DNA of 64,000 nucleotides from Spongilla lacustris (taxonomy: Eukaryota; Porifera; Demospongiae; Spongillida; Spongillidae): the NCBI GenBank assembly GCA_949361645.1, contig OX442421.1, positions 4,631,320 to 4,695,319 on the forward strand. Direction: 5' to 3'. Positions 395 through 62,390 of this stretch are shown in pieces. Under the pieces are notes generated by a model, which was not told where the DNA came from, did not search any database, and was given only the letters and a program-made list of their open reading frames with translations. Position 1 is the stretch's first letter, and every line of letters starts with the position of its first letter. The position numbers were made by a program, and so were the translations under genes.

Positions 395-2437
395 CTGTAT
401 GGGATGCAAAAAAAAAATCACATATGAATTGTGTGCTTACATAAACGGTGACATATTTAAAACACTTGCCAATATACACGGTTGTATACAGAGATTTTAT
501 TTAGCGTACTCATCAAAAAAACGCTTATATACAATACATGTATATAAATATATAACTTACTAGCACTATTCTAGTAATCATTTACATCATCTTTTTTTTT
601 TTTTAATTATATCTTCAACATTTCAGCATTCCTACAAAATGGCACATGGTAATTTGCCACTATTGCTAACTCACTGGGTTCAAAACTCTGTAGGAGTAAA
701 TAAAATCACTTTAAATAGGTAGAAAGGTCCTTTAGCTATAATTTTTATGCCATAAGTTACGGAAACACAGTTGAACTATGTACATATTTTATTGCGCTCG
801 ATTTGTGCCAATGATTTGGGCAAATTGGCTCGAATCAAGTGGCAAAACGTGGACGTAGTATATCTCCATAATAGATGGCATAAAAATTAACCAACAGAAC
901 AATTCCTTCAATAGTGAAACAACCTCTCTACATACAAATTGAATTTGAAGCGATTTGATTACTTCTACTACATTAAAGTATGGCGGGGTTGAACCCAGTA
1001 TGGTATCAAACGTTGGAAATCTCACGCTAAGTGCAAGACTCCAAAATCTATTGCACCATAGAGAAGTGGTGTAGTATGAAGACTCGAAAATAGGAAGTGG
1101 ATAGCTTTAACCGATGAGAAGCTGATAATGATCCAAAAGCAATGAATTTGATAATTTATTATTCATCTCTAAAAAGTCCCTTTTCCCGGGGACTGTGAAT
1201 GCATCAAAAAAAGTGAGGGTAACAGCAGACCAAAGAGGTGGGGGTATGTTCCTCTGGATAGTGAAAGTTAGTGATGTGGTGTTCTAGCTCATCATACTAG
1301 AAAACAGGTGCATGCTCCTGTTATCTCACAACATGGAAAATGATTAGAGCACCAAAATCAATTAATTTCAATTTCCTCATAGAAAGATAATGTGGGAACA
1401 AGTGCACAAAATTTGAAAGAAATTTTTTTTATTGTTACGAGGACATACTGTATTGGATTGCTCAACGTTGAATTTTGAGTGATAAATTTTTTTAAGCCTT
1501 AGAAGGGTGATTTTGCTGAAGCAGCTAGCAGGACAGAGCAGTGAAGTACAACTACCCTCACATGCTTCCAACAATTCTTCAGGGGAGTGCAGTGGAAAAC
1601 ATATCTCATAGTAACAACATATATGTAGTACTCCTTAAATTGTAATATACATGGCAAGGTTACCTGACTAAGTGCATACATGCATATCGGTGGTCACTAT
1701 TTTTTTACTCTGGTTTAAACTACTTGTATGAATATAACAAATCACAATTGTGGTACAATACACAAGTCATTTACCTGAAGTGATGCAACCTTATTATACA
1801 TGTCTTTTGGTTGCATAAAGCACCTGATTCCTGCATCCTGGACATCCTCACCACAGATGATTAATTATGTACAAAGCTGGCTATAATACATGTAAGCTCA
1901 AGCATTCTCGCATATACATCCAGCTATTGAATTGTGAGAATCCACTCCCCAATGGACCTTTTCATTTAAGGGCACAAGGAATGCAATTAGTGTTGATTAC
2001 ACGTGACGTCAAATCCGGAGTACATTCTTCGCACGTTTGGCTATGGTGTGCGCGTGTATTCTCACGTGTGTTGGCTTAGTTGGCTTCAAATTTGAGGTAA
2101 GAATGATGAATGCAGTATGGAGGACCCCTCCAGGTACATGCTGTGATCATGCTTCGCATTCTCGTTCAAAGTTTCTGAATGTACGAAACCAAACAAATCT
2201 GCCGGTCCCTCAAAGCGACGTGACACAAAACGTCCGCCTTGTGCCTCACCTGTTCTTCTCTAAATGGGTAAAGTGTGAAAAAAATAAATGAAACAGAAGC
2301 AGCCTTTGATGTACTGTTCCTTTCATTTTACAACTGAAGATATACCATTAACCATTTACATAGGAGTACCATGTCATTTCAACTCCCTGCCTGCACATTT
2401 GTTCATACTTCTTACATACAACCGCTAATGGTGCCCC
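395..2437. other. No gene recognised
   Basis: AT-rich DNA with short open frames on both strands. None shows a recognisable motif, and no chain of splice sites with matching phases was found. Upstream exons of the minus-strand Death-domain gene may lie here but were not identified. Confidence 0.4.
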
Positions 2438-4571
2438 CAGGCCCGTAGCCAGGGGGGTGCAAACGGGTGCAATTGCACCCCCCCACTGGATGCAAGGTCC
2501 GCTTTGCAGGCTATGAATATTATTCACTTTATTGTGCAATCTACACATATATTAATAAGAACTGCCATGTGCACGATCGAGTGCATGTAAGAGCACTGGT
2601 GCGGGATCAAGTCAGGGCTATGGCTCGACCCTTTTTGCCCAAGGTCCACCTCGAAAAAGGATATACTGATAAAATTGTGTGCATATAGCCCCTGAGTACA
2701 CAGTTCAAGTTCATCAGTTCAAATCAGTGCCAAATCAGTCAGTTTTGTACCAAAATATCTGTGACATTTTGCTTGAGGTGACTATGGACAAGGTACACCA
2801 TGTACATGTGACTGTAACTGTATGATTTTTAGAATAATTATCTTTACTACTTACACCCAGTATGGATAATTATATATCACATAGAATCGAAGTCAGTTCT
2901 CAAGTACCCTTCCACAACCATATGACCACAATGTTTGGTGCGAAGGAAATAACTCATTGGCCACAATGGTTTCAAAAGAGGTCTTGAATCCACTAACTAA
3001 AGATGAAGGTCGCGCGTGATATGTATCTACGCATGCAGTGTTCCGTTCCATCTGTGTAAAAGCTGACTGCAGCTGGTGACAAAGCATCTAACCGAAAGAA
3101 TTTGCTGACTGTGGCACGGCTTACAGCTATATAGTGCTCCTAGTTCCCAGACCCTCCCATACCCACCCCCTACGTGCAGTATAAAAACTATTCCGCTCTG
3201 TTACTAGTTAGTTCCATGCCCTTATTATTTTCCCTCTCCGGGCCACCCTACAGGCCTATAGCTATTGCCGGGCCTTGCCATGCCATAAACCTCAGACACC
3301 GTAGCTCCTCCATCACATCAGCTTTGCAACTTTTGCCAGGACTTGCAATTTTGTACTGAATTGCAAAATAGATTTGTGACTCTTCAATCCTATGGCATTG
3401 CATGGCCAGATTTCAGTACTACTTTGTAATAATGAAAACGTGGTACCAGCCTTCCTTTAACAAGTAGTAAATAGTACTATGTAATAACCACATTTGCTTT
3501 CATGTATATCTGCATGCAGGGTGAGCTGCCGTATGCTATGCACGTGATTGCAATTGTGCATTGCCCCAGCAGCTTTGCATAGAGCTTTTGATTTATTTAT
3601 TTTTATACAGTCAATTGCAAAAAAAAAATTTGCGACACTTCATGGCATTGGCCAAATTTACTACATGAACCAAATAATGAAAATGTTGTACCAGCCTTCC
3701 TTTGTAGTAGAAATAGGACTATTCTGGCAGTGCAACTGAGAGGAAGACTTTACCACTGATATTTGCTTTCATACAGTAATGTACATCAGATTCTGTAGTG
3801 TGAGCTGCCTTGAATTGTGCATTGCCCCAGCAGCACCTTTGCAACTTAACCAATTTTTTTTTAAGTCTTGCAATTTTGTACTCAATTGCAAAAAATTTTG
3901 TCACACTTCAATCCTCAGTATGGCATATTGCATGGCCAGATTTTATGACCCAAATAATGAAAATGTGGTACCAACCTTCCTTTACCAAGGAGTAAATAGG
4001 ACTATATGTAGTAGAGGAAGACTATAACCGCATTTGCTTTCGTGTACATCTGCATGTATGGTTAACTGCCATATGCTATGCACGTGCATGCAGTTCTTGC
4101 ACTGTGCATTGCCCCAGCAGCTTTGCATGCAGACTTTATTCAGTCAATTGCAAAAAACAATCGCGACACTTATTCTATACCACATTTGGCTAGATTTACT
4201 ACATTGTATGAACCAAATAATGAAAATGTGGTGCCAGCCTTCCTTTGAGGTAGTAAATAGGACTGTGTAATAGAGGAAGACTTTAACCATATTTACTGTT
4301 AATATTTGATACATCTGTAGCGTGAGCTGCCTTGAATTGTGCATTGTCCTGGGCAACTATTGCAAATTGTTATGTCTTACATGCAATTTTGTATTCAAAT
4401 GCAAAGGAATTCGCGACGCTCCATTCTTACGGCATTTCTGCATTGGCCAGATTTACTTAATACTTAGTACCACACACATACATGCATTGCATTATCCTGG
4501 CTACACCACTGGTTGAGTCCACTTATAACATACTTTGCACCCCCCCAACACACAACCTGGCTACGGGCCTG
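2438..4571. mobile_element. TIR DNA transposon remnant, hAT-like ends, non-autonomous
   Basis: The left end begins CAGGCCCGTAGCCAGG and runs into a G-rich stretch and TGCAAA. The right end is its inverse, TTTGCACCCCCCC then CCTGGCTACGGGCCTG. Ends of this type, CAGG plus CGTAGCCAGG, are common on hAT-family non-autonomous elements. No clean 8-bp target duplication is visible; the flanks are both C-rich and only roughly alike. The interior holds a tandem repeat (separate entry) and no transposase frame. Decayed, non-autonomous copy. Confidence 0.55.
3300..4440. repeat. About four diverged tandem copies of a 265-290 bp unit
   Basis: Landmarks recur in order: CAATTGCAAAAAA, a GCGACACTT or CACACTTCA block, TGGCCAGATTT, AATAATGAAAA, CCTTCCTTT, GGAAGACTTTA, and ATTGCCCCAGCAGC. 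The last lies near 3557, 3822 and 4109, with a diverged version near 4340, so spacing is about 265-290 bp. The copies have drifted by substitutions and small indels. All lie inside the TIR element. Confidence 0.65.
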
Positions 4572-5382
4572 GCCCCCACACCCAAATACACTTCCTACAG
4601 TACCACATGCAAAGTGCAAACCTCCCTCTATCCACTGTTTATAATGGCAGATCAAAGATATGCTGTAGTGGCTTCAATGGTGCATGATAGTGTGTGCCTG
4701 CTTGTGTGCTACTCCCACTGTTATGTGGCATAGCAGTACTCACACACATTTAGAGGACATCTAGCAACTGCTAGACATGCCGCAGGCTGATGGAGTGTTA
4801 ATGATTTTAGCACAATCACTAATATATGTGTAGGAGAAGAGGGACAGAAAATAAATTCGTGGTGAAGGTGTTAAAGCCTAAAAAGACTTAGTGTGAGATA
4901 TATGCATATTCAAAGAGTTTTCAGTATACGCACGGAGGGGAGGAGTTGGAATGGCCCCTATGTAAGTAGTAGACTTCTCCTCCAGGTATTGAGTGGAAAT
5001 CACACAGACAGTAAATGAAATAGTATGCTAATGGAATTATACTCAAGCTGTCATGATGACAAACAAGTATCTAAGGAAGAGCATAACCAAGGTTTGAGAT
5101 ATTGTATGAGTTGGCATCTGATAATTGATGAACATGCTTGGGCCAGTAAGTAGCAAGCACATTCCTCTTGGAAAAGTACTGCACACAAGTTATTATTGTG
5201 GTGTCTTTGGTCTGGATCCAATTACATGTTCAGATGCAGTCTTTGAAACAGTGTAGCCTGTGGCCAACCTCATGCATCCCAGATTTAAAACACTTATAGG
5301 CCTTAGCAATTATCAATTCAACAGTCTGTTCTTTACCACTTGTTTACAAAAGATGTAATGTTGGTACTGTATTTATAATATA

Positions 5383-10750: not shown

Positions 10751-10834
10751 ATGCTAAAGGGATTGGCTCTGCTTGCTGTTCTGGCGGCCCTTCCAGCGGC
10801 CATGGCTCGTCCTCGTGTCCATAACTCTGAGATG
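10751..10834 (+). CDS. Signal-peptide exon of the micro-exon gene
   Basis: This 28-codon exon starts at an ATG followed by MLKGLALLAVLAALPAAMA, a textbook secretion signal with a likely cut after Ala-Met-Ala, then ARPRVHNSEM. It ends at the strong donor ATG|GTAAGT in phase 0. In-frame ATGs lie upstream (for example 10682), but they would place charged, non-signal residues before the hydrophobic core, so 10751 is preferred. Confidence 0.75.
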
Positions 10835-13800
10835 GTAAGTCGTCACCAGAGCTATATAGACCTTGCATATCAATGATATCATGCATGCAAGCGGAATGTC
10901 TATCGTTGCTGCGAAAAGGGACCTATATCATGTTTTTTTTTTTTTTCTTTCCAGAAACGATGTAAATGTACATGTATACCATTTTCAATTGTATTTAGTT
11001 GTGGAACAAATTAGATACGATACTATGGCAAAGTGCGCAGGCATGCACAAGCGCAAAGTACTATACTGTACTGTAGTACTTCAGAGGCGGATTTAGCCCC
11101 CCCTCCCCCTCCCCCTCCCCCTCCCCCTCCCCCTCCCCCCTCCCCCCTCCCCCTCCCCCCTCCCCCTCCCCCTCCCCCTCCCCCCTCCCCCTCCCCTCCC
11201 CCTCCCCTCCCCCCTCCCCCTCCCCCCTCCCCCCTCCCCTCTCCCCCTCTCCCCCCTCCCCCCCCGCAAAACCTATGTTCAGTATTATGCATGGCTTCTT
11301 TCACTGTACTATGCGTCTATGCTGCTAACGTACATGTATTCCCTAAACCCACACAGGTGATGCAGACTGGTGAGTATGCGCATGTGTTCGTGTGATTGTT
11401 AAACGTCCGTCCTTCATGCACGCAGATTTGGATACAACTGTGGACGATGTTTATGTCCAGTCAAATTCCAAAAACCTTGCGGATAGTAAGAATAGTTGGT
11501 CGTTGAAGCCATGTAAATAATGGCATAATTGCATAGTAACAAGCCCAGATAAGGTCTTACGTTATATGAACGCTGAGATTGATAAAGAGAATGGACAGGA
11601 AGAGGAAGAGGTAAGCTGCTGTTATTCCTTCTACTAGATACGCCTAATACTTATTTATTATTCCGTTATTCGTGTGGGATACAAAGGCAGTACCGGTAAG
11701 TATAATATATTTTGGATGTAGGCCTATGATCTTTTTATGTCAGTGCTTATACATTGTATGTCATGACTCATAACGAACATGCTTGAGAAGAATGAATTGC
11801 CAGCAAACTTAAAAGGGTGTGTAATCGATTTTCAGGTTTTGTAGGTTATTCGATTATTCGCGATTCGGTCGACTATACATTTAGTAGAATAGCAGGTTAC
11901 CGATTTCAGAATTTCATTTAGTCGAAATAACCGATTCTGTTTTTCTTAGTCGTAATTAGACTAAGTCGATATTCGTTTCCTTCGTATGCAGAAATGACCA
12001 AATCGGTAGGAAATCGATTACTCCTTTTTCATGTCCTTCGCTTTTCCCGCCTGCTTACTAACGGGTTAATTAATCGGGATGTAATCAACACATAGTCTGG
12101 GGACCCAGCTGAACCGTGCACGGCAATTTTAGGCAATTCTCTGCAGCATACTACATGTGCGTCTTTGTGCGATAATCAAACGCGCTACGTACTCATTTGC
12201 ATAGGCGACAGGTGTTCAAAGTACACTGCATGACTCTTCTCCAGACATTCGGCCATATTCATAACATTCTGAATATTGTACATGTCTTGATTGCGTGGAG
12301 CTGTGTTCCACCATGAGGTTTCTAGCTGGTTCTGCTCAGTGTATATTAAGGGGCATGCTGTTCGATTGTGGCGGATGGGAATTGTGCGTGTTCCAGGCAT
12401 TTTGTACTTGAAATGGTCATTTCGAGCGCAAGCTGCGGGGTGGAGTTTTCATCTCAGTAAGCTAAAATCTTACATGTTCCATAATTAGTTGTGCGTTGGT
12501 AGCTGGCGAACAAATAACCACGTGTTTTTCAGTGAAAAAAATGCTTATGATTCCCATCCGCCGCCATGCATTGAAAAACAGAATCATTCCGGCCGGCTCG
12601 CCAGTGGGTTTGGCGGCGTAACATTGGCATGCCCCTCGTTCCCAGTCCCTGTGGATACTATCTTATAGCCGGGGCACGTGTAACTGTTGTTTTAATGATT
12701 TAAAGTTGGCGTAAGCAGCTGACTGAAAACTGGCTATACGTGTATTTGTATTGAGAAACTGTGATTTATCGTGCCAATATGGGAAAACGTGGAAAACCTA
12801 GGTAATCGTTGGCAAATTAATCAGTAGTGCATTAATCGCCAAAATCGATCTAATAACCGATTTGCAAGTTGCTATAAACCTGAAAAATCGATTGGGCTTT
12901 TAATTTTTTTCCATAGTCCAAATAATCGGTTTTGATTTATGAAAAGGGTTACACACCCTACCAAACTATTCGGTGAAGTGGAATAACAGATTATGGCCCA
13001 ATCTCAGGGATTTTCCACCTCCACTTCCTCCTCCGAACTTTTTTTTATAGCAAAATGAAATCAAGGATTTACTAATGCCTGTGAACATGGGTGGTGATTA
13101 CAGAGCAATCCTTGAAGCATTTATATGATCAATAATGATTGTCGCATGGGTATTTAAGTGTGCATCAAACATACATTTGGTGTCAAAGAAATTTATTATT
13201 CTCTTTTTAAAATCATAAACATGAAGATGGCTACTAAGTGTGTAAGTTTTTGAAGTCATTATTTTCAAAGTATATTACTATTTTCATTCTTGCAGTGTGT
13301 GAGTCAATTTAACAATGCATGTTGTTACTGTAAATAAATGACTGGATATACCTTGCGGCTCTGTTGAATCTACATATTAGACAGTAAGCCTATGTTTGTA
13401 TGCTTGATGAGCTCATTTATTCAAGAATGTGTCAATATATATATAATTATAATTATTGTGTCACCTGTGGATCAATGAAGTGTGTAAGTGAGAGCATTAC
13501 ATGTACATTATATCCATGCATTAAAAACTCCTTTTCATATAATAAATACAAACAATTCAGATGGTAAGTAACCGCTTTTCATAATATGCCATGATCAATG
13601 CAATGTTTGGATGTGATTGCTGTATGTGGCCTACACTGATATAGACGGTAAGTTGCTAACAATTGGTGCTTGGTACATTAAAATTACTTATACTAACTTC
13701 AACTGAACTTGAATACTGTCAAAAAGACGGTAAGATCTTTGATTGATGCATGGTTGTACTAATTTGACAGACACAATTCATTTTAGCAATCTTCAGTAAG

Positions 13801-14482
13801 TATTACTTGCTGATTGAAACGAAGATAATCCATTTTATTACTAATGTACCTGGAAATAAAACTAATTAGACTTTTATGGTAAGTATGTTATCACAGTTAT
13901 TCATATAACAATTTCAATTTCTCTCTATCTATAAAATGGAGATTGTAAGTATCCCTTCTTGCGAGTGCTCCACTCAGTGACAATTATTATTTGCTATTGT
14001 CAACTTACTCATCATACAGTGTGTAAGTTTTTTTTTAATGACCAATGATTGACCTTTACTAAAATCTCTCTCCCCTCCCTCCCTACCATTTTAATCAGAT
14101 GCCTGTAAGTTATAGGGGCACTGTACTAATGTCAAGTAATTGAGTCCTTTTCAATTTCATGCGCGAAATATATATACAAACTACATAGCCAGTAAGCTCC
14201 TGCCATATGCCAAACTTTTATTTAATATTTCTCTACTATATACTAATATAGCCTGTAAGTATATGTATCCGGAATCAATTGAATCATATTATTACATGTA
14301 TATTTGAATATCCGCTTCATTATTTGCTCGCAATCCTCGTGCACTTCCAAGGGCTCCTCGGGGAAGTGTGTAAGTGGTATGGTATAAAGGCATACATGCT
14401 TGTCAACATGTTTTGTTGAAATTTGACTCTTCTGTGCCTACAGTGTATGAATGGTGGTTGCTGCGTCAATTTCTACCCATAA
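10751..14482 (+). CDS. Secreted micro-exon protein, about 22 exons, twelve of 3 nt
   Basis: Exons: 10751-10834, 11357-11369, 11426-11485, 11537-11610, 11687-11695, 13051-13080, 13239-13241 (or from 13227), 13296-13298, 13381-13383, 13481-13483, 13561-13563, 13645-13647, 13727-13729, 13787-13795, 13870-13878, 13942-13944, 14020-14022, 14099-14104, 14189-14191, 14252-14254, 14367-14369, 14444-14482. Phases run 0-1-1-0 through the first four exons and every later exon is a whole number of codons. The product, about 120 aa, has a signal peptide, an acidic pro-region rich in Asp/Glu, and a short Cys-rich tail with Pro. The layout (leader, acidic spacer, Cys-rich end) suits a processed secreted peptide, and micro-exon genes of schistosomes are the closest architecture I know. 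Function unknown; a defensive, adhesive or toxin-like role is possible but not shown. Introns of 54-112 bp in the array match those of CYB5R4 next door. The least certain exons are the 9-nt one at 11687 and the join at 13080. Confidence 0.65.
10955..11014 (+). CDS. Possible alternative short terminal exon, Cys-rich
   Basis: The strongest acceptor of the locus, a T-run ending CTTTCCAG, opens a phase-0 frame of 19 codons plus TAG that begins KRCKCTCIP and has four Cys. Joined to the signal-peptide exon it would give a very short secreted Cys peptide instead of the long form. There is no transcript evidence and no poly(A) signal is obvious close by; it may be cryptic. Confidence 0.3.
   Translation, partial: KRCKCTCIPFSIVFSCGTN
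11095..11268. repeat. (CCCCCT)n tract
   Basis: About 170 bp of C5-6 T repeats, in an intron of the micro-exon gene. It follows CAGAGGCGGATTTAG, which resembles a transposon end. The G-rich complement could form G-quadruplexes. Confidence 0.9.
11426..11610 (+). CDS. Acidic pro-region exons 3 and 4 of the micro-exon gene
   Basis: Exon 3 (11426-11485, after ACGCAG, before A|GTAAGA) encodes DLDTTVDDVYVQSNS plus KNLAD. Exon 4 (11537-11610, after GCATAG, before GAG|GTAAGC) encodes ITSPDKVLRYMNAEIDKENG plus a QEEEE tail. An alternative exon-4 acceptor, CCCAG at 11546, keeps the same frame. The acidic, Cys-free composition is what one expects of a propeptide or linker. Confidence 0.6.
11814..12959. 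mobile_element. Candidate 1.15-kb non-autonomous TIR element in an intron
   Basis: The left end AGGGTGTGTAATCGATTTTC faces the right end, which finishes GGGTTACACACCCT. Subterminal motifs recur inside in both orientations (AATCGATT, AACCGATT, AGTCG and ATTCG blocks). No coding frame is present. The terminal repeat is short (about 11 bp) and a target duplication could not be fixed, so boundaries are approximate. It separates the 5' exons of the micro-exon gene from its micro-exon array. Confidence 0.5.
13239..14369 (+). other. Micro-exon array: fifteen exons of 3-9 nt
   Basis: Every exon sits in the frame AG | 3n nt | GTAAGN (one GTGAGT). The 3-nt exons are TGT (13239), TGT (13296), ACA (13381), TGT (13481), ATG (13561), ACG (13645), ACG (13727), ATT (13942), TGT (14020), CCA (14189), CCT (14252) and TGT (14367). 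The 9-nt exons are CAATCTTCA (13787) and ACTTTTATG (13870), and one 6-nt exon is ATGCCT (14099). Each adds one to three residues without changing frame, so any could be skipped freely. AG-NNN-GTAAG occurs exactly eleven times here; at equal base use it is expected about 0.07 times in 1.2 kb. Confidence 0.72.
14444..14482 (+). CDS. Terminal exon of the micro-exon gene
   Basis: After the acceptor GTGCCTACAG, thirteen codons encode CMNGGCCVNFYP and a TAA stop in phase 0. Three Cys in twelve residues continue the Cys-rich end built by the TGT micro-exons. A poly(A) signal AATAAA follows at 14598. Confidence 0.65.
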   Translation, partial: CMNGGCCVNFYP

Positions 14483-14584
14483 GATTGAGTCAGACTTTCA
14501 ATTTAAGATCCTGATGAACTGAGATTAATGCGCTTGTTTCCTGCTTTTATCACAGCTGATTCCTATATATAGTTTTACTTACAG

Positions 14585-14602
14585 TGCCATTTGTGTAAAT
14601 AA
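14585..14602 (+). CDS. Possible second terminal exon, six codons
   Basis: After TTTTACTTACAG a phase-0 frame reads CHLCK and stops at TAA, overlapping the AATAAA signal. It is very short and rests only on acceptor quality and frame; it could simply be 3' UTR. Confidence 0.2.
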   Translation, partial: CHLCK

Positions 14603-14603
14603 A
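14598..14603 (+). terminator. Poly(A) signal AATAAA
   Basis: Canonical hexamer 116 bp after the stop of the 14444 terminal exon. A second AATAAA at 14785-14790 follows the possible distal terminal exon. Confidence 0.5.
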
Positions 14604-14640
14604 AAATATAATTTTATAATAATTATAATAATGATTTCAG

Positions 14641-14742
14641 GGCGCGCTGGCCAGGCAGATCATCAACCAATTATACCAACAATTGGCCATCACATTGCAG
14701 AGGCAACATGCCAGAGCAATGATTGCCAGACAGCCATTATAA
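14641..14742 (+). CDS. Possible distal terminal exon: 33-aa Gln/Arg helix
   Basis: After the acceptor ATGATTTCAG a phase-0 frame of 33 codons plus TAA reads GALARQIINQLYQQLAITLQ and then an Arg/Gln/Ala-rich end. It has no Cys or Pro until the last residues and would form an amphipathic basic helix. It fits onto exon 21 or any earlier phase-0 exon as an alternative ending. A frame this long is not rare by chance, but the acceptor, phase and nearby AATAAA (14785) favour it. Confidence 0.4.
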   Translation, partial: GALARQIINQLYQQLAITLQRQHARAMIARQPL

Positions 14743-60109: not shown

Positions 60110-62390
60110 ACAGGATTTTGTGGAATAGTTGGCAGGATGGCAGTGTTCCAGCTACTCCAGCAACAAATAGTGGCGCAGCAGAAACATACAGAAGCACAGC
60201 AACAGCAACACCTGAGGCACAGCAACAGCAACACCTGAGGCACAGCAACAGCAGATGGAGGTAGGGCGTAAACAGATGGTAGAGCTTAATCACTGCCCGG
60301 TAGACAAGCGAGAGCAACCAACTTCACTTCCTGTGGTCCCCATTTGCAAGGCTGCGATTGCAGGAAAACCTGTTAAACTCTGCAACTGCTAGGTTGCAGT
60401 TGACTGTCAGCAGGAACCCCATCATCACCCCATGCCACTTCCTGAAGATCTGATGCAGAAGTTGGGTGGTGGGTATGGTTTTACAATGATTGACCTTGCC
60501 GATGCCTATGCTGGCTCCCAAAAGTCACAAGTCCTTGCCTCTGAGCACCCGACGAGGAGTAAATGTGACTTCCCTTTGGCATGAGCTCAGCTCCAGCCTA
60601 CTTTCAGGGGATCATGGACCAGCTGGCCAGAGCCCTCCGAGAAGTGGTTGTCTACATAGACAACATCCTGGTCAATCTAACGTCTGGAATGCAAGGGTCT
60701 TCGCTGCCGGTCTGGAGAAGTGTGTAGGGTACTTCAGTCATATCCTGACTGGCCAGGGGATTACCAATGGTCCAAAGGTGAATGATATCATGCAGATGCC
60801 AGCTCCGGGAAATGTCTCTGGTCTACCAATATTCCTTGGGTCATTTCAGTTTTAGGCCAATAGCAAGTTCCTTCCTGACCTTGCTACGTTAACAGTACCA
60901 CTTCATCGTTTCACCATAAAGGACACACCATGGATTATGGGTGTAGAGGAGCAAGCTGACTTCCAGGATCTACTCTGCGCAGACAATGCACTTGTCCACT
61001 TTGATCCATCTCTCTCTGTCAGGATCTCTTTTGATGCCTCTGAGGTGGGTTTAGGAGCTGTCCTTTTCCATTGCTATCCAGACAGCAATTAATGTCCTAT
61101 CGCTGATGCTATCATTATATTCGTCTTGAACAAGTTTCACCAGTTCCAATATGGCCACTCAATCATTCTGGTCACGGACCACAAGCCACTTGTTACATTG
61201 CTTGAACCAAGGCAACTCCTAAGCCAACAGGCTTGCACGATGGGCACAGACACTCAGCAAGTACCAATACACCATTGCGTACAGGAAAGATGCTCTCAGC
61301 CGCCTTCCAGTGGACAGGATGCCAGCTTTGATGAGGGGAAACATGACACAGATTTTGACACAGTCAGCACCATCGAAACTTATAGCTTCCAACTGCAGGA
61401 ACAATGGCCTAGGAGACAGCCAAGGGATCCAGTCATTGCCATTGTAGTGCGCTTCAAATAAGAAGGTTAGCTACCTAGGGACAAAGGAGAGACATCAAAT
61501 GATGGCTTGGAGGATTTCCGCAAGGTGGCAGTGTCACTGTCTACAGCACATGGGTGCCCTTCTGGGTATGGGTCCAGAGTTGTCAAATGTTCCCACCAGC
61601 CTGAGGCCGCAGGTATTGCAGCTTCTTCACTTGGGACACTTCGGGAAGCATTTACTTCCTGTGCATAGCACCATACCTGGATGCTGCTGGAGATACCATG
61701 GAGCAGAGTGCATTTTGATCACACATCACCTTCATGGGGTCCAACTAGCTGGTGATTATCAATGCATACTCTAAGTACATGTACCTTCCTTGCAACTACT
61801 TGACTGTATCCACTTCCACCAAGTCCAGCTGCTGGGGAGCAAGATTTTGGCATCCCCATACCACCACTTCTTTCTATTCAGAGGAGTTCCAGGCATGTTG
61901 TAGGGAGAGGGGAACCACCCATCTCACTGGTGCACCTTACCACCCTTGCCACCAATGGAGATTTCATGCAGGCTCTCTGTAAGTCGGCCCTTCAGGAGTT
62001 CTTGATGGCAAACTCCTCTGGCAGACACCTACTCCCAACGTGAACTCCTGAATGGTTGGCTTATTTGGACCAACATATATGTTCTAATTCCTCCCCCAGC
62101 GCATATTGCTCAAGGAAAGCAGACCAGAGCAGCCACAAAGCCACAAAGTCCCAAGAACCTAAGCTTCCTGATAGGGTGCCTCCTACCTATTCTGTGGGCT
62201 CACACTGTACTGTGGCCTGAGGTGTGAGAAGGATCCCAGATGGGTGCCTGCAGTGGTCAAAGAGAGGTTCGGCACATACAGTGTCAATGTACGTGTGGTG
62301 CCATGAGGTGGCACATTGCATCACCACATCGAGCAACTGAGTACTCGCTATGTGGACCAGGATGATGCAGGCATCAGTTGGTCTGGACAG
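60110..62390 (+). pseudogene. Ty3/Gypsy-type pol pseudogene 2, a different lineage
   Basis: Begins with a Gln-rich gag-like start (MAVFQLLQQQIVAQQKHTEA), then RT pieces in the order YGFTMIDLADAYAGS-like and REVVVYIDNILVN-like. RNase H follows (SFDASEVGLGAVLF, then ILVTDHKPLVTLLEPRQ), then integrase pieces (VLQLLHLGHFGKH, IINAYSKYMYL, TSFYSEEFQACC). It is broken by many frameshifts. Sequence differs clearly from pseudogene 1, so these are two families in tandem and not one duplicated copy. No LTR pair was recognised. Confidence 0.7.

Follow-up and report, generated by a model that had tools for sequence, protein, structure and literature searches.

An array of mostly single-codon exons in a predicted secreted-peptide gene of the sponge Spongilla lacustris

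Organisation of the gene and its surroundings

The window analysed here is a stretch of 64,000 nucleotides (64 kb) of the Spongilla lacustris genome (assembly GCA_949361645.1, contig OX442421.1, positions 4,631,320 to 4,695,319, forward strand). Positions 10751-14482 of its plus strand can be read as a single gene. It begins with a signal exon and three exons for the pro-region; a 9-nt exon and fifteen micro-exons follow, and a last exon closes the frame. Once joined, these 21 exons give 327 nt terminated by TAA, corresponding to 109 codons including the stop, with no internal stop codon. An initial annotation had noticed an array of single-codon exons at this place. The observation is confirmed, and it is larger than first noted.

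Exon 1 (10751..10834, donor GTAAGT) encodes the predicted signal peptide MLKGLALLAVLAALPAAMARPRVHNSEM, a hydrophobic leader as judged by its composition. It is kept in two close paralogues, L023 and L033, and this signal type has 11 matches in the genome. The acidic pro-region was placed on three exons, at positions 11357..11369 (13 nt, donor GTGAGT), 11426..11485 (60 nt) and 11549..11610 (62 nt, ending with EEEE). The first of these aligns in L023, and the L023 gene model has the same 60-nt and 62-nt exons. The signal-peptide exon and acidic pro-region that the initial annotation had proposed are both present. The 9-nt exon 5 (11687..11695) encodes AVP, replaced by AES in L023.

The micro-exons extend from 13239 to 14369. 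Twelve of them are 3 nt long, one has 6 nt and two have 9 nt; all are in phase 0. As identified from the joined frame and from comparison with paralogues, they are, in order, TGT (Cys, 13239..13241), TGT (Cys, 13296..13298), ACA (Thr, 13381..13383), TGT (Cys, 13481..13483), ATG (Met, 13561..13563), ACG (Thr, 13645..13647), ACG (Thr, 13727..13729), CAATCTTCA (QSS, 13787..13795), ACTTTTATG (TFM, 13870..13878), ATT (Ile, 13942..13944), TGT (Cys, 14020..14022), ATGCCT (MP, 14099..14104), CCA (Pro, 14189..14191), CCT (Pro, 14252..14254) and TGT (Cys, 14367..14369). The donor is GTAAGT in 11 of the 15 cases; the others are GTGAGT (once, after exon 13296), GTAAGC (twice) and GTAAGA (once). The introns of the array are 54 to 112 nt long. 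The initial annotation had given the right coordinates for these fifteen exons of 3, 6 or 9 nt, twelve of them single codons, each bounded by AG and a near-perfect donor, as well as the right intron lengths. The frame in which each micro-exon brings whole codons is open from the signal exon to the stop, in agreement with the proposal that the exons are symmetric and in phase 0. In the predicted joined message, the array peptide CCTCMTTQSSTFMICMPPPC would lie between AVP and CMNGGCC. Eight cysteines are counted in the predicted mature part, which bears out the suggestion of a Cys-rich product.

The last coding exon (14444..14482) carries CMNGGCCVNFYP and the stop codon. A further exon at 14641-14742 had also been suggested. 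Neither close paralogue backs it; the stop at 14480-14482 is kept in both L023 and L033, and the sequence past ~14586 could not be aligned to L023. This exon was rejected.

The 1543-nt intron preceding the array contains a transposon-like stretch (11823-12893) that has no counterpart in L023. Its inverted arms, 11823-11844 and 12872-12893, are 22 nt long, imperfect and 77% complementary. Elsewhere in the window, positions 20018-53744 are very densely occupied by minisatellite arrays of many different units, from 11 to >100 bp, and a reverse-transcriptase RNase H domain is weakly matched at 61093-61458, slightly below the curated cut-off. Rfam and tRNA scans of the 64 kb gave nothing of use, and the ten open frames of the window that were compared with Pfam had no domain at the curated level. 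Automatic gene models contained spurious long exons in several loci, including the window, and were relied on only where paralogy agreed.

Splice-site pattern, reading frame and related loci

The motif AG-N3-GTAAG occurs 12 times on the plus strand of the window and once on the minus strand, and 11 of these 13 occurrences lie inside the 1.3-kb array. From its rate in the rest of the window, 0.021 occurrence per 1.3 kb would be expected (Poisson P ~7e-27). When the spacing was varied from 1 to 9 nt between 13201 and 14500, N = 3 was found 11 times, N = 6 once and N = 9 twice, and lengths 1, 2, 4, 5, 7 and 8 were never found; exon 13296 falls outside this count, its donor being GTGAG. An AG directly abutting GTAAG, as in recursive splice sites, is absent from the array.

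The genome (248.6 Mb, 51 contigs) was then searched with a strict pattern of three donors. It gave 183 matches, simple tandem repeats included, as compared to 30 in the reversed control. For the GTAAGTA half of the pattern, the full list holds 73 matches against 2 in the control, corresponding by hand count to at least ~42 separate places, after exclusion of 10 rows at three simple-repeat places; this is a lower bound because only that half was counted. Twenty loci on C1 to C3 were fetched in list order, one simple repeat being passed over. All 20 contain micro-exon chains, as expected since they had been chosen by the pattern. The chains run far past the search pattern, from 8 to 41 units, with 41 consecutive single-codon exons in L016. 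A homologous signal exon was found upstream in 13 of 21 loci after filtering. For a related signal, the MLKEL type, the genome contains 62 matches with E no higher than 10, and in 41 of these E is ≤0.001. The same architecture is found at other loci of the same genome.

In the 20 fetched loci and the window region taken together, AG-N3-GTAAG is present 395 times in the sense orientation as compared to 18 times in antisense. The corresponding values are 48 and 17 for N6, 28 and 14 for N9, and 13-29 and 5-41 for N1, N2, N4, N5, N7 and N8. In total, 419 micro-exons were called, among which 378 have 3 nt; the median intron is 84 nt long. Array intron lengths are evenly spread modulo 3 (130, 134 and 130). 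The sixth base of the donor is T in 372 of the 419 cases, the first five being fixed as GTAAG by the search. More generally, since the pattern required GTAAG and 3-nt exons, this sample is biased as to donor strength and exon length; the tests of frame, stops, Cys and paralogues do not share this bias.

A single stop codon, in L012, was found among 474 micro-exon codons. Calculated on their own base frequencies, the 378 3-nt exons should have held 21. After concatenation of 26 chains from 23 loci, the one-codon-per-exon frame contained 1 stop in 552 codons, and the two other frames 14 and 49 in 526 each. In the same test, Cys was found 77 times in the one-codon-per-exon frame against 6 and 13 times in the others. 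Reading of codons across exon junctions (phase 1 or 2) was thus rejected, with 63 stops in 1052 codons in those frames. Followed by eye in several related MLKEL genes, the pro-region exons reach the array in phase 0. Of the 378 3-nt exons, 294 end in T or A. G+C at the third codon base is 0.22 in these exons as compared to 0.61 in 13 signal exons, perhaps an effect of splicing or of ancestry.

Comparison of the window gene with L023 showed no difference in the 105 AG and GTAAG columns of the array, against 97 changes in 989 intron positions. L033 has lost splice-site bases only where one exon is missing, seven positions in all: the whole ACG exon at 13645 went with a 20-nt deletion, so that the predicted peptide has one Thr less and the frame is kept. 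The Cys codons are identical in the three genes. Residues vary among the window gene, L023 and L033 as Q/P, S/Y, F/T/M, M/I, I/V, M/R and P/S. Micro-exon bases changed at 11/60 (window and L023), 8/57 and 10/57 positions in the three pairs, and intron bases at 97/989, 47/995 and 97/969. In each pair, micro-exons changed more (Fisher P of 0.046, 0.007 and 0.076). Over four paralogue pairs, codon positions 1, 2 and 3 differ at 19, 22 and 18 of 92 codons, and introns at 1069 of 7862 positions. The 36 changed codons comprise 31 nonsynonymous and 5 synonymous changes, and 20 of them have two or three bases altered. Though the sample is small, these comparisons point to diversifying change at whole codons.

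Other loci of the superfamily showed features of their own. L030 (G000:C12:2129500-2134700, positions 585-4841) has 44 micro-exons, and the peptide they encode is collagen-like, rich in Pro and Gly, with PPG repeats. In L029 (2385-3478), different codons stand between near-identical 88-nt introns, and two middle units have broken acceptors, with a 270-nt gap. Outside the superfamily, the 28-kb mitochondrial contig (G000:C51, L032) contains recurring translated motifs such as GPTTSVLYR, which suggests palindromic repeats proliferated between genes. Mitochondrial COX1, translated with TGA as Trp, shares 95% identity with a UniRef cluster assigned to Demospongiae.

Proposed splicing and origin of the arrays

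Taken together, these sequence comparisons make it very probable that the window gene belongs to a sponge superfamily in which a short, likely secreted, Cys-rich peptide is written mainly on single-codon, phase-0 exons, predicted to be spliced in order into one message. A 3-nt exon cannot carry both neighbouring splice complexes simultaneously. Because it would also be too short for recognition as an exon, the introns would probably be removed one by one in order, and the three bases just added would form the end of the upstream exon as it grows, to be paired with the next GTAAGT. Such a process would be akin to recursive splicing, with one codon added at each step. The near-perfect intronic half of the donor would be accounted for by the exonic half being a free codon. 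Since the unit is one phase-0 codon, its loss or duplication alters the peptide by whole residues with no frameshift. The gene would then be a scaffold modular residue by residue, suited to fast-evolving secreted peptides, for which a role in defence, antifouling or signalling is possible.

Two other readings of the arrays were considered. Single-codon exons might be skipped or included in combination, giving many peptides per locus. All micro-exons being multiples of three in phase 0, any subset of them keeps the frame, and the L029 units with broken acceptors suggest that units can be passed over. However, the Cys codons and the retained splice sites are invariant in the three paralogues, as for a defined product, a result that constitutive inclusion explains no less well than combinatorial use; we consider combinatorial splicing rather improbable. 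The arrays might also be a non-coding repeat merely resembling splice sites, and many of them are indeed made of repeated sequence. This reading is refuted in the main, and we give it hardly any weight, in view of the stop depletion in a single frame, the Cys enrichment, the lengths in multiples of three, the splice sites that stay invariant as introns change, and a window array with no repeated intron.

Several observations nevertheless weigh against in-order splicing of the arrays into one secreted peptide. The L012 stop is a TGA at 4599-4601, within an otherwise open single-codon chain; it may reflect a decayed gene, a skipped unit or a false exon. Together with the L029 units with broken acceptors, it indicates that some arrays may be decayed or may skip units. 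In four paralogue pairs, 73 micro-exons were matched and 22 had no partner by the matching rule used, these 22 falling in three of the four pairs. Neither Pfam nor solved structures supplied a relative supporting a function: nothing significant was found in Pfam for six predicted precursors, and the structure searches gave a single match at E 3.4 and otherwise none, hence no convincing relative. Finally, among named organisms the gene family has its closest relatives in proteins of Ephydatia muelleri (order Spongillida); the models of these diverge after the pro-region, and none contains a recognisable array-encoded peptide.

The Ephydatia muelleri models do contain the signal and pro-region exons, with the joins between exons 1, 2 and 3 occurring as predicted, for instance in P0123. 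As for the missing array part, 3-nt exons are likely to be overlooked in annotation. The model P0127 reads through the intron most common in the Spongilla arrays, the 88-nt family intron described below (score of 56, as compared to a maximum of 38 in 200 shuffles). P0147 clearly contains a translated family intron (110 against 36 in shuffles), and the match of P0126 is marginal (31 against 29). The translated intron stretches in P0127 and P0147, both public protein predictions, look like annotation artefacts and suggest that Ephydatia muelleri and the source of P0147 have the same arrays.

The family intron accounts for 217 of 339 array introns, matching its consensus at ≥0.60, and forms the majority in 12 of 21 loci. 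Compared with that consensus, shuffled introns scored medians of 0.49-0.53, with single values up to 0.64. Gapped intron identities were dropped as a measure since shuffled introns reached 0.79 at those settings. None of 12 introns of the window array belongs to the family, and those of L023, L026 and L028 are likewise outside it. The genome contains 292 exact copies of the last 19 bases of the family intron, the reversed control none. Of these 292 copies, 256 are followed by NNNGTAAG, that is exactly NNN-GTAAG; the other 36 are not.

Concerning the origin of the arrays, we favour, tentatively, duplication of units with selected change of the codon. A 91-nt unit, composed of the 88-nt intron and a codon, often NNT, would have been duplicated in tandem, with strong diversifying selection acting on the first two codon positions and with introns homogenised to some extent. 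Near-identical introns are indeed spaced by exactly 91 nt in several loci, and several PPG units of L030 derive from tandem duplication of three units (~272 bp). When units of L016 are compared, identity is 72% at codon position 3 and only 30-31% at positions 1 and 2. The T/A preference and low G+C at the third base, the 31 nonsynonymous against 5 synonymous changes and the 20 of 36 codons altered at two or three bases go in the same direction. Other data fit this scheme less well. Intron identity within a chain is independent of distance (0.675 for adjacent introns, 0.690 for introns at least 10 apart), so that neighbouring introns are not especially similar. Identical adjacent codons are not in excess (26 of 340, as compared to a shuffled mean of 27.5). 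The family intron is as conserved beside the codon as in its middle, with no drop toward a codon that is itself near random. These same data would be accounted for if a mobile 88-nt intron, similar to introners, had been inserted between codons of once ordinary exons, the arrays then being by-products of its spread, and so would the single consensus shared by most introns, the lack of any association, from locus to locus, between a codon and the variants of its flanking introns (z of -0.7 to 0.9) and the different codons between near-identical introns in L029. Such an insertion is compatible with the splicing proposed above. It appears unlikely, though, because what follows the family intron is almost always a single-codon exon and not an exon of random length; with an intron end preceding exactly NNN-GTAAG in 256 of 292 cases, random insertion leaves the strict codon spacing unexplained. 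In addition, the introns of the window, L023, L026 and L028 do not belong to the family, the position 3 pattern of L016 resembles what duplication followed by selection on the codons would leave behind, and L030 contains block duplications of PPG.

Overall, we lean toward the view that these loci represent a new class of animal gene, with one amino acid per exon, dozens of recursive-like splicing steps and an intron-plus-codon unit as evolutionary currency, allowing residues to be gained, lost or exchanged with no frameshift. If transcripts confirm it, the system would be an extreme test of the spliceosome, the 41 consecutive 3-nt exons of L016 being far below any recognisable exon size. Sequential, intron-defined splicing would become directly testable in an animal. 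Sponges, a lineage that branched off early among the animals, are known for bioactive peptides, and a natural system would be available there in which each peptide residue is a separately exchangeable unit. Such genes evade ordinary annotation; given that the P0127 model reads into the repeated intron, entire peptide repertoires may be absent from sponge proteomes.

Comparison with known systems

In the open-access papers searched, gene splitting this extreme appears undescribed; no description of such single-codon arrays was found there, subscription papers and preprints being outside the search. Single 3-nt exons are spliced in animals, as in mouse Ncam (PMC8042270); in the available text they are cited as single exons, whereas the sponge arrays have up to 41 in a row.

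Schistosome micro-exon genes (MEGs) are the closest kind of gene. According to the available text, they form a variable multigene family of 35 genes for secreted proteins with a signal peptide, coded mostly on very short exons, mostly multiples of three; exons measure 6-81 bp (3-81 in the abstract), mostly 15 bp, and introns 0.1-5 kb (PMC10526429). The window gene resembles this description in its N-terminal leader and its mostly symmetric, very short coding exons. It differs by the predominance of single codons (378 of 419 sponge micro-exons), by short introns (median 84 nt; 54-112 nt in the window array) and by the many copies of one intron. The aromatic W motif that follows the signal peptide in the MEGs, as far as they are described there, has no equivalent either, the whole predicted window precursor being devoid of W. 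The parallel with MEGs drawn in the initial annotation is apt as an analogy and not as kinship; the comparison gave no sign of common descent.

In recursive splicing at zero-length exons, an intron is removed stepwise and the donor is regenerated at each step. The sponge arrays would share the stepwise removal of a series of introns, but three bases would be retained per step, and no AG-GTAAG is present in the window array. Introners are near-identical introns found in many copies at unrelated sites. In the sponge, near-identical copies make up the majority in 12 of 21 loci and none of 12 introns in the window array; 256 of 292 exact intron ends precede single-codon exons.

As regards the product, several small disulfide peptides are described from demosponges, namely stryphnines, asteropsins, barrettides and halichondamide, with precursors made of a signal and an intermediate region and, for barrettides, introns of <100 to 400 nt (PMC13418204, PMC8713285, PMC11382151). 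The available text of these papers does not mention a micro-exon architecture. Sponge knottins form a six-cysteine inhibitor knot, whereas eight Cys are predicted in the mature part of the window product. Sponge disulfide peptides are the likely product class of the arrays.

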